From IMG/VR virus record IMGVR_UViG_3300000265_000025, positions 1 through 22,584 of that record: 22,584 nucleotides of DNA. One strand, 5' to 3'. Positions 589-5,853 of this stretch are shown piece after piece. The notes beneath the pieces are model-generated. The model ran no database searches and was not told where the DNA came from. It saw only the letters and a list, made by a program, of their open reading frames with translations. The DNA comes from a virus. The position numbers and the translations under genes are program-made. Every line of letters starts with the position of its first letter. The first letter of the stretch is position 1.

Positions 589-732
589 TCACTTTCCGAC
601 ACCATAATCACCACCATCCTCTGCATGTTTGCGTTCGGTATCATGTAATGCTTTGAGTGCTTCTTCAACCTCAGGAGAATGTTCCCACTCCCACATGTCA
701 CCCTTCTCAGTGATTCTGCTCTTCGTGCTCAT
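589..732 (-). CDS. Small acidic hypothetical protein (47 aa)
   Basis: Reads MSTKSRITEKGDMWEWEHSP and then an acidic helical stretch ending GGDYGVGK. The tryptophan-rich MWEWEHSPEVEEALKAL segment followed by a charged helix resembles short conserved cyanophage proteins I have seen, without known function. From the ATG at 732 it overlaps the end of the AbrB-like gene by 26 bases. An internal ATG at 696 would avoid the overlap and has AGAAGGG just upstream, so a 35-residue product is an alternative. Confidence 0.6.
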   Translation of the reverse strand: MSTKSRITEKGDMWEWEHSPEVEEALKALHDTERKHAEDGGDYGVGK

Positions 733-934
733 TTACTTTCCTCAGTGTGAAATAGTCGTCATGTGATTCAAAGTCAATAACAGTATCAGTTGTCCATCCT
801 AACTCCTCTAAGAGTTCATCTGGTAATGGTAACATGAGATCACCATTTTCGTCAACCTCAACCTGACTGTAGTATTTTGAATTAGTAGTCACAGTAATTG
901 CATCCCATCTAAGTTTCTTTTGTACCCACCACAT
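707..934 (-). CDS. AbrB/MazE-like small protein (75 aa)
   Basis: After a short lead (MWWVQKKLRWDAITV) the product reads as a swapped-hairpin AbrB-type fold: SQVEVDENGDLMLPLPDE (about 23-40), then LLEELGW, then a hydrophobic strand (TVIDFESHDDYFTLRKV). The order 'strand, D/E-x-G-D, LP-x-E-L-x-x-x-LGW, strand, x-LRK' is typical of AbrB/SpoVT-type DNA-binding antitoxins and of small cyanophage homologues. No toxin gene is beside it, so a regulatory role is only inferred. The ATG overlaps the previous gene's end by 26 bases; a GTG at residue 15 is an alternative start that would remove the unusual lead. Confidence 0.7.
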   Translation of the reverse strand: MWWVQKKLRWDAITVTTNSKYYSQVEVDENGDLMLPLPDELLEELGWTTDTVIDFESHDDYFTLRKVNEHEEQNH

Positions 935-3658: not shown

Positions 3659-4900
3659 TTATGCGACCACACTGGTGGCAGGCATACCGTCAACGAATAC
3701 TGTGTTGACAATTGCTTGGAGTCTCTTGATAGTAGGAGCACCATAGTTTTTGAAAACGGGCACTGTCACATAACCAGTAGACTTGCGATACATTGCAACA
3801 TCACCAGCAGTAATCTTGCCGTTAGCAATATCAGCAGTATCCTCACGATTCATACGAATCACACGACCAATAGTTTGTGCCATCTCGATGACATCAAGTT
3901 GACGCAACATCACAGTGTGAGTGAGACCGTGAACGTTGATACCTTCAGACAGGATGCTATAGTGGAAGATGATAAACTTCTTGCTAGGGTCTTTGCCCCA
4001 TGCATCGAAGGTGTTGAAGAACTCCTGACGATTGACTTTGGTCTTGTTCACATAAGCACCATACTTGCTGGTGATATGCAGCACATCGTAACCACGCTCA
4101 CGTAATTGATGCATGATATCAGTCTTGAATAACATAGCACCCATGATCTTGCTCGCAGGAGACGCTACAAGGACCTTGGAGGCGCTTGCAGCATCAAGCG
4201 AGTCTACCACACCCAGAAGCATGTCACGATCGTTTACAGCAGCATCTGCACCCTTCTGACGAGCATAGTCTACTTCAAAGGGAAGAATTGTAGGAGGAAG
4301 GATGCTACCACCTGCAATTAGTTCAGGAGCAGGAACATTCTCAAGAACAGAACCAAAGATCTCACCATTGTTCATGCCACGGTTGCTGAAACGAGTGTGC
4401 TTAGGTGTTGCAGTAAAGAAATATGATGCATCAGCACTTAGACTGGCAGCAGCAACACCAACAAAGTGATTACGCTGCACAGCATTATGTGCCTCATCAA
4501 AATAACAGCAATCGAGCTTGATACCAGCATCAATGATACGTCCGAGTGAATGATATGTGGTGAAGATGATTACATGCTCACCAACATGGTGACACATGCG
4601 AGTAAACAACTCAATGCGATCAGACTTAGTAGTGCTGAAGTGCTTTGTTTCGCCACTATGAACGTGGAGAACGTTAGCATTGGTGATAAACTCAAGGTAT
4701 TCAGAAGATAGTTGAGTTGCCAGCATGATGCGAGGAGCAACAACAACAATAGTCTGCGGAGTCTCTGCGGAACAGAGACGCCTCACTACATCCATGATGG
4801 CAATAAGAGTCTTGCCGCCGCCAGTAGGCACGATGATCTGACCCTTGCTCGCATTCTCCATGGCATCGAGAGCACGTTGCTGATGGGGACGGAGTTGCAT
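3659..4900 (-). CDS. SF2 DNA/RNA helicase (413 aa)
   Basis: A superfamily 2 ATP-dependent helicase with the conserved motifs in order. A Q-like opening (LRPHQQRALDAM) is followed by Walker A PTGGGKT (residues 25-31), motif Ia VVAPRIML, Walker B DEAH (135-138), motif III TAT (163-165), motif IV/V segments VLVASP and ILSEGINVHG, and motif VI QTIGRVIRM (342-350). Two RecA-like domains are complete. At 413 residues it is shorter than T4 UvsW and lacks an obvious accessory domain, fitting the stand-alone helicases of cyanophages. The role in replication, recombination or repair is not resolved from sequence. It has its own promoter 27 bases upstream and leads the leftward run of small genes. Confidence 0.9.
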   Translation of the reverse strand: MQLRPHQQRALDAMENASKGQIIVPTGGGKTLIAIMDVVRRLCSAETPQTIVVVAPRIMLATQLSSEYLEFITNANVLHVHSGETKHFSTTKSDRIELFTRMCHHVGEHVIIFTTYHSLGRIIDAGIKLDCCYFDEAHNAVQRNHFVGVAAASLSADASYFFTATPKHTRFSNRGMNNGEIFGSVLENVPAPELIAGGSILPPTILPFEVDYARQKGADAAVNDRDMLLGVVDSLDAASASKVLVASPASKIMGAMLFKTDIMHQLRERGYDVLHITSKYGAYVNKTKVNRQEFFNTFDAWGKDPSKKFIIFHYSILSEGINVHGLTHTVMLRQLDVIEMAQTIGRVIRMNREDTADIANGKITAGDVAMYRKSTGYVTVPVFKNYGAPTIKRLQAIVNTVFVDGMPATSVVA

Positions 4901-4916
4901 CGGGTCTGTCTTGCGT

Positions 4917-4940
4917 TGATGCTATTATTATAGAGCATCA
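4917..4940. promoter_or_regulatory. Operator-like dyad centred on the helicase -10 box
   Basis: TGATGCT (4917-4923) and AGCATCA (4934-4940) form a perfect 7-bp inverted repeat whose 10-base spacer contains the TATAAT box. This geometry is typical of a repressor operator. A cruciform or a 5'-end effect is less likely. Confidence 0.55.
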
Positions 4941-4955
4941 GACCGCGCTGGTCAA
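4927..4955 (-). promoter_or_regulatory. Strong sigma70-type promoter for the helicase gene
   Basis: Leftward TTGACC (4955-4950) and TATAAT (4932-4927) are separated by exactly 17 bases. The -10 is a perfect consensus and the -35 matches five of six. The predicted start of transcription is near 4920, about 20 bases before the ATG. Host RNA polymerase could use this early in infection without phage factors. Confidence 0.8.
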
Positions 4956-4956
4956 G

Positions 4957-4978
4957 AGTCTGTGACAGTTTACAGACT
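4957..4978. other. 7-bp inverted repeat beside the -35 box
   Basis: AGTCTGT (4957-4963) and ACAGACT (4972-4978) flank an 8-base loop. The repeat sits between the stop of the 290-residue gene and the -35 box. It could be a weak terminator for the late genes (no T-run follows) or a second regulator-binding site. Confidence 0.45.
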
Positions 4979-4980
4979 GG

Positions 4981-5853
4981 TTAGGAACGGAAGGATTTGA
5001 AGTTCTTTGCTTCTCTCTTGTATACTAGCACGTCTTCGAGCGCACCAGTATCACTGAATACAAATGAGAAGTCAATTTCTTGGTCAGTATGATCAATTAG
5101 TGTGCGAATCCATGCCGCATCATCTGCACTAATCATCTCATATACTTGTTCAATAAGATTAATCCACTTCTCTCTAATCTCAGACTTGGAGTTTTTCTTC
5201 TTTTGCCAAGAGAGTGAAACAATACCCTTATTTGTTGGATTTACAGGTAATGAAAATACTCTACTAGTGTAATCGCGACGGGTATGGACAATAATATTAT
5301 GATCTGATTTGTTTTGCTCGAACCATATATTATAATTATTTTGTAATATTTTCTCGGTAAACTTGTAAAGTTTAGAATCTTGCAGAGTCTTTGTAATACC
5401 AGCAGCATTATGTGACATACTAATAGTATTACCGTCAGCATCAAACTTAAACTTCACGATTTTAATTACATTAGGTCCAATTCTCTCGAAGAGATTTAGC
5501 ACCTTCGCTCTAAGATCTTCAATAGGATCTAACTCAAGAGACAATTGATACCATTCTTTATCGTCCATCAAATATTCTAATGACAAATCAGTAGTTACAT
5601 CAATTTGCTCAATCTCTTCGTTATAGTAAATCCCAACATATCTGGATATAGACTGTGGGATAATTATTTCTTGATCAATAAAAGTAAATCCCAATACTTT
5701 TTGTAGTTTATCAATTTGTTCATTTGTAAAGATTTCTGGATATTTACTATCAACTAGAGATGTGCATTGTGGCCACATTACTGCATTAGTATACAGCAGT
5801 GACTTATCACTCAAACGATATATTTTTGATACGTCAAGTTCTGCTGCAAACAT
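4981..5853 (-). CDS. Hypothetical protein (290 aa)
   Basis: A soluble-looking protein with mixed alpha/beta character, starting MFAAELDVSKIYRLSDKSLL. Segments of note are a strand-rich middle (NVIKIVKFKFDADGNTISM), a basic patch (SWQKKKNSKSEIREKW) and an acidic C-terminal part (FVFSDTGALEDVLVYKRE). No signal peptide, membrane segment or enzyme motif is evident, and I do not recognise the family. The TAATG junction with the 117-residue gene indicates coupled translation. The gene is the last before the strong helicase promoter, so it probably belongs with the oxygenase and fibre genes upstream. Confidence 0.75.
   Translation of the reverse strand: MFAAELDVSKIYRLSDKSLLYTNAVMWPQCTSLVDSKYPEIFTNEQIDKLQKVLGFTFIDQEIIIPQSISRYVGIYYNEEIEQIDVTTDLSLEYLMDDKEWYQLSLELDPIEDLRAKVLNLFERIGPNVIKIVKFKFDADGNTISMSHNAAGITKTLQDSKLYKFTEKILQNNYNIWFEQNKSDHNIIVHTRRDYTSRVFSLPVNPTNKGIVSLSWQKKKNSKSEIREKWINLIEQVYEMISADDAAWIRTLIDHTDQEIDFSFVFSDTGALEDVLVYKREAKNFKSFRS

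Follow-up and report, generated by a model that had tools for sequence, protein, structure and literature searches.

Middle promoters of phage T4 are read by the sigma-70 polymerase with AsiA and MotA, and combine a -10 hexamer with an upstream MotA box, which is short, non-palindromic, located near -30 and takes the place of a poor -35 element. For the T4-like cyanophage Syn9, Doron et al. (2016) are said to have found that a novel element controls the early genes and that host-like promoters control the middle genes. Cyanomyoviruses possess neither motA nor asiA, and the late promoters of S-PM2 read NATAAATA (PMC2984593). Hairpins that hide ribosome-binding sites have been described in T4 (PMC2988022), and Puxty et al. 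(2018; PMC5931967) describe -35 and -10 elements together with a late site upstream of the cyanomyovirus psbA gene. The promoter analysed here bears on early and middle transcription in T4-like cyanophages, which operate without MotA, AsiA, Alt and Mod (PMC2984593).

The window, i.e. the whole 22,584-base stretch of DNA that was analysed, represents part of the genome of a T4-like cyanophage; over 3 kb, its identity to Prochlorococcus phage Syn1 and to cyanophage S-RIM44 is about 90%. The promoter lies within the 80 bp (4901-4980) that separate two genes of the minus strand. The gene 5' of it (4981-5853, 290 aa) belongs to PHROG 4851 (9.7e-97) and has no assigned function, and the gene that it drives (3659-4900, 413 aa) encodes a UvsW-like DNA helicase (Pfam ResIII, 2.1e-18, with DEAD and Helicase_C; PHROG 16 DNA helicase, 1.8e-62). 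The gene order is the same in Syn1, where tail-fibre genes are followed by the gene of unassigned function and the helicase, and then by a run of small genes. For comparison, the region upstream of the helicase was taken from named phages and from viral contigs, 23 of them close and 80 from a wider set.

The -35 hexamer TTGACC (4950-4955, minus strand) and the -10 hexamer TATAAT (4927-4932, minus strand) are separated by 17 bp and together match 11 of 12 consensus positions, which bears out the preliminary description of a near-ideal promoter and agrees with the sigma-70 pattern of TTGACA/TATAAT-like hexamers 16-18 bp apart. It is the joint best among 50 promoter-like matches in 12 kb, but since shuffled sequences yield 40.9 +/- 6.2 of them, a consensus match by itself means little. 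Among 57 helicase promoters of relatives the -10 is nearly invariant; the -35, kept as TTGACC in Sf-CH11, S-H9-2 and three contigs (L006-L008), is poor or missing in many others and matches TTGACA at 0-2 positions in 30 of the 57. The host-type promoter ahead of the helicase is real. Its likely transcription start, as predicted from the sequence, is A4920 (minus strand), 12 nt past the first -10 base, a place occupied by A in 82% and by G in 14% of the 57 promoters (A or G, 96%). This base falls within CATCAA (4916-4921, minus strand); of 57 helicase promoters, 16 have CATCA[AG] no more than 20 nt downstream, as do 14 of 70 promoters of the box class described below, against a background of 1.3-1.9%. 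No Shine-Dalgarno sequence is visible ahead of the helicase, and neither an NtcA box (GTA-N8-TAC) nor a Pho box (CTTA-N7-CTTA) was seen by eye in 4901-4990.

The conserved neighbour of this core promoter is a 24-bp palindromic box, CTAACCAGTC-TGTA-AACTGTCACA (4961-4984, minus strand), which ends 28 nt before the -10 hexamer, encloses the stop codon of the upstream gene (4983-4981) and scores 24.2 bits on the profile of helicase-upstream regions. Of 84 non-redundant regions upstream of the helicase, 65 contain a box matching the consensus G[AC]CAnT[TC]-N4-AACTG[TG]CACA, typically with scores of 15-27 bits, compared with a 99th percentile of 8.1 bits for shuffled sequences; about a quarter of relatives have no such box, and some of these carry a different palindrome. 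The constant feature of the alignments, AACTGNCACA at 4970-4961, 5 nt 5' of the -35, is the right half of the palindrome; the left half is imperfect in the window (ACCAGTC against G[AC]CAGTT), and the box of contig L001 is identical to that of the window. Relative to the predicted start, the box is centred near -52.5 and spans about -41 to -64. Its arms vary independently: box positions 4 (A/C) and 19 (T/G) are combined as A:T in 15 cases, C:T in 14, C:G in 12 and A:G in 10. An RNA stem was rejected for want of covariation, and a DNA-binding dimer is therefore more likely. Judged by these independent arms and by the fixed distance to the promoter, the box looks like a protein-binding DNA site.

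The box is not confined to the helicase. A profile trained on the helicase regions only retrieved 137 sites in six complete cyanomyovirus genomes, compared with about 48 in Markov sequences; it was fitted on related sequences, and counts among close relatives are not independent. Within these six genomes, 73 TATAAT-like hexamers are located 28-31 nt past a box, as against about one per offset elsewhere, so that a -10 hexamer is about 17 times commoner there than at other distances. TTGAC 17 bp from the -10 accompanies only 7 of 70 genome-wide box sites. In 12 phage genomes there are 102 copies of exact AACTGNCACA (reversed pattern, 23) and 21 of the exact module of box and -10, the latter in one orientation only (reversed control, 0). 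The full palindrome is found 14 times in the S-PM2 genome versus none in the control. In the hosts, the palindrome does not exceed control level in four Synechococcus genomes, and the module is absent from those of WH7803 and RCC307 (4.6 Mb together). The most secure evidence comes from the distance histogram and from the reversed controls. With a palindrome of 24.2 bits in the interval of 27-32 nt before the -10, the promoter of the window would belong to the same box class. Genes annotated beside box sites include cobS, the T4-GC 146 peptidase, psbA and many small genes. A box of fixed geometry at such named promoters (helicase, cobS, psbA, peptidase, small genes) could serve as bait for its regulator, and provides a means of predicting the regulon in any related genome.

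Compared with the described systems, the locus resembles the T4 middle promoter in being of the sigma-70 class and in belonging to a group of promoters where an upstream box accompanies a poor -35, but a 24-bp palindrome near -52 is unlike the MotA box; none of the latter was noticed by eye in the window, itself a genome fragment. The AT-rich -10 recalls the gp55-dependent late promoters of T4 and S-PM2. A T4-type late promoter was nevertheless rejected, the site reading TATAATAATA rather than NATAAATA and having a -35. Some relatives have TGGCAC..TTGC, but a sigma-54-like interpretation was discarded for its wrong spacing; marine Synechococcus are moreover not known to possess sigma-54. A close counterpart is the element of Doron et al. 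(2016; Syn9, P-TIM40), which is reportedly likewise of non-T4 type, shared among T4-like cyanophages and used beside host-like promoters. The box may be this very element; should it already be published there, the value of the present analysis would lie in its palindromic nature, its coupling to a terminator and its switch between clades. A text search of the literature for AACTGGCACA gave, among the matches listed, only unrelated organisms. As with the psbA upstream motifs of Puxty et al. (2018; PMC5931967), a box lies upstream of the phage psbA in Syn1 (181432), with TATAAT 28 nt on; a similar box with TATAAT was seen in S-H9-2 (120853).

The preliminary description had sought the regulatory site elsewhere, in two 7-bp inverted repeats of the minus strand, TGATGCT/AGCATCA around the -10 (4940-4917, 10-nt gap) and AGTCTGT/ACAGACT beside the -35 (4978-4957, 8-nt gap). 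Both are indeed perfect in the window. Counting perfect 7-bp repeats whose gap is 3-12 gives 38 for the window versus 16.7 expected from shuffles. Two of them within 80 bp turn up in 0.5% of shuffles and in 1.8% of real 80-bp stretches of the window, which makes the present pair no more than mildly unusual, before allowing for the search itself. Among the relatives, the promoter boxes stay and the dyads go, contrary to what the switch proposed for them would imply. In 57 anchored relatives the -35-side dyad retains 1.84 of 7 pairs, i.e. chance level, and the -10 dyad a mean of 2.37 (shifted-register control, 1.80), compared with 4.39 of 7 for the true box arms. Already in the closest named relatives, Syn1 and S-RIM44, the right arm of the -35-side dyad reads ACAACGT and ACACCGT, respectively; this dyad overlaps the box in another register and is probably incidental. 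For the -10 dyad, only the L001, L006-L008 and L010 types keep 5-7 pairs out of 7. Both dyads were consequently rejected as operators. The suggestion of a regulated switch thus holds insofar as a palindromic regulatory site is present, but not for the two dyads as that site.

Several explanations were weighed for the -10 dyad of this narrow group. Its 3' arm, the start-site sequence, recurs without the 5' arm, so that the dyad would have arisen here by chance or be peculiar to the lineage; within the overall explanation favoured below we regard it as a probable by-product, pairing a lineage-specific TGATGC with the conserved CATCAAC. If the dyad were a protein operator found only in the Syn1-like group, this would account for the six pairs kept in L006 and L008 and for L010, where the same centre carries other arms (GCGTTGAT..ATCAACGC). 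Such an operator is quite improbable: the 3' arm is conserved in the absence of the 5' arm and recurs at other promoters as a start-site sequence, that of L010, ATCAAC, being again the part conserved elsewhere, and nothing comparable was seen at other promoters of the same genomes. A repressor operator over the -10, as first proposed, was rejected, the dyad not being conserved along with the promoter (2.37 of 7 pairs, control 1.80); the conserved palindrome lies instead 5' of the -35, in the region that activators usually occupy. Improbable too, if slightly less so, is an RNA switch of T4 style, in which pairing of TGATGCT/AGCATCA or GGTCTG/CAGACC in read-through RNA would make the start region inaccessible, and transcripts from 4920, devoid of the 5' arm, would be translated. 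T4 applies the same logic to late genes, among them soc and e, and to homing endonucleases such as I-TevI (PMC2988022), and here as well the repeat spans the -10 and the predicted transcript begins within the 3' arm; moreover, a fragment from 4945 pairs GGUCUG with CAGACC next to the AUG, and a transcript from 4920 is nearly unfolded. Unlike the T4 hairpins, however, the folds are little better than those of shuffled sequences (z -0.9 to -1.8), the dyad is missing in most relatives, no Shine-Dalgarno sequence is visible and Rfam gave no match, and a T4-type RBS-hiding hairpin was rejected on fold significance and conservation.

A different hairpin proved widespread at this place. Terminator-like structures (a stem of at least 5 pairs followed by a T-rich tail) precede the helicase start in 52 of 83 relatives versus 6 of 81 control stretches, often between the box and the -10. 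Their loop often contains TTGAC, as in S-CAM3 (GGGGTC-TTGAC-GGACCCCTTTTTT), which means that terminator and promoter are superposed; such superposition on the helicase promoter was noted in S-CAM3 (L030), ACG-2014h (L031), L009, L019 and others. In the window, a small hairpin over the promoter spacer, GACC-AGCGC-GGTC (4941-4953, minus strand; -3.7 kcal/mol), is a four-pair remnant at the place of the relatives' terminator, without the T-run. Among the relatives, presence of the -10 dyad shows no visible link with absence of the terminator. The preliminary description's idea of a dedicated promoter for the helicase and small genes, apart from the tail-fibre unit, is favoured by the terminators of the 52 relatives, where the hairpin between box and -10 would shield the helicase unit from tail-fibre read-through.

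Taken together, we favour, with a probability of about 0.6, a promoter of host sigma-70 type that belongs to a class shared across cyanophages and is aided by a putative dimeric DNA-binding activator at the box. A phage-encoded or phage-brought dimer would bind around -41 to -64 and touch the RNA polymerase, offsetting a weak or missing -35, and transcription would start at A4920 to give a 20-nt leader. An activator is suggested because many box promoters have no good -35, and because a box at fixed distance upstream of a weak -35 is the usual activator layout; at the window itself the -35 is good, so that little help may be needed there. The same palindrome could instead be the operator of a phage or host repressor that shuts the promoters off at some stage, and its occurrence at many promoters, in clade-specific versions resembling the divergence among repressor operators, would fit. 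We regard this as unlikely, since the box lies upstream of the -35 without overlapping the core promoter, its near-constant spacing from the -10 points to a contact with the polymerase, and the many box promoters without a good -35 would be weak unless helped. Least probable of all is a plain host-type promoter with the box as an artefact of composition: TTGACC-N17-TATAAT would suffice by consensus, but the positional locking of box and -10, the single orientation and the absence from hosts speak against it. The protein that binds the box might also come from the host, if it has few sites there. A host transcription factor whose sites are numerous in the host found no support, the palindrome being at control level and the module absent in hosts.

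The candidate regulator put forward earlier, an AbrB-like protein at 707-934 (minus strand), could not be upheld: no Pfam model, AbrB included, matches it above the threshold, and the protein belongs to PHROG 661, with function unassigned. Among the small proteins conserved in nine phages, no recognised transcription factor was found save the late-promoter regulator PHROG 254. A DUF1825 protein, with a cyanobacterial domain, is encoded at the start of the Syn1 genome (L048:1-321) and is conserved in cyanophages, its identity falling to 28-29% in S-RIM50 and S-H38; nothing links this conserved protein to the box.

Relatives without the first box offer a further view of the position. An imperfect palindrome, ATAAG-N5-CTnAT, stands at the place of the box in 12 of 21 such helicase regions, and is enriched over a shuffled control in the genomes of S-H38 (13 vs 2) and S-CREM1 (14 vs 0). 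Between phage clades the sequence thus differs but the position is the same, and the clade-specific second box would allow the regulator to be hunted by comparison of phage proteomes. A broader scenario, which we put forward tentatively, is that cyanophages swapped MotA/AsiA for a dimeric activator of their own, reading a palindrome near -52 at about 10-20 promoters per genome; the box would have diverged by clade (GACAGTT-N4-AACTGTC versus ATAAG-N5-CTnAT), with its place kept and activator and sites coevolving. In S-H38 (L282-L290), TTGAC and a -10-like hexamer come after the second box at most of its gene-strand sites, and in S-CREM1 (L263-L271) the second palindrome takes the place of the first box. 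In S-RIM50 and S-RIM8 (L034, L035), yet another palindrome, GCACAGggttCTGTGC, fills the 17-bp spacer between TTGACA and AATACT upstream of the helicase.
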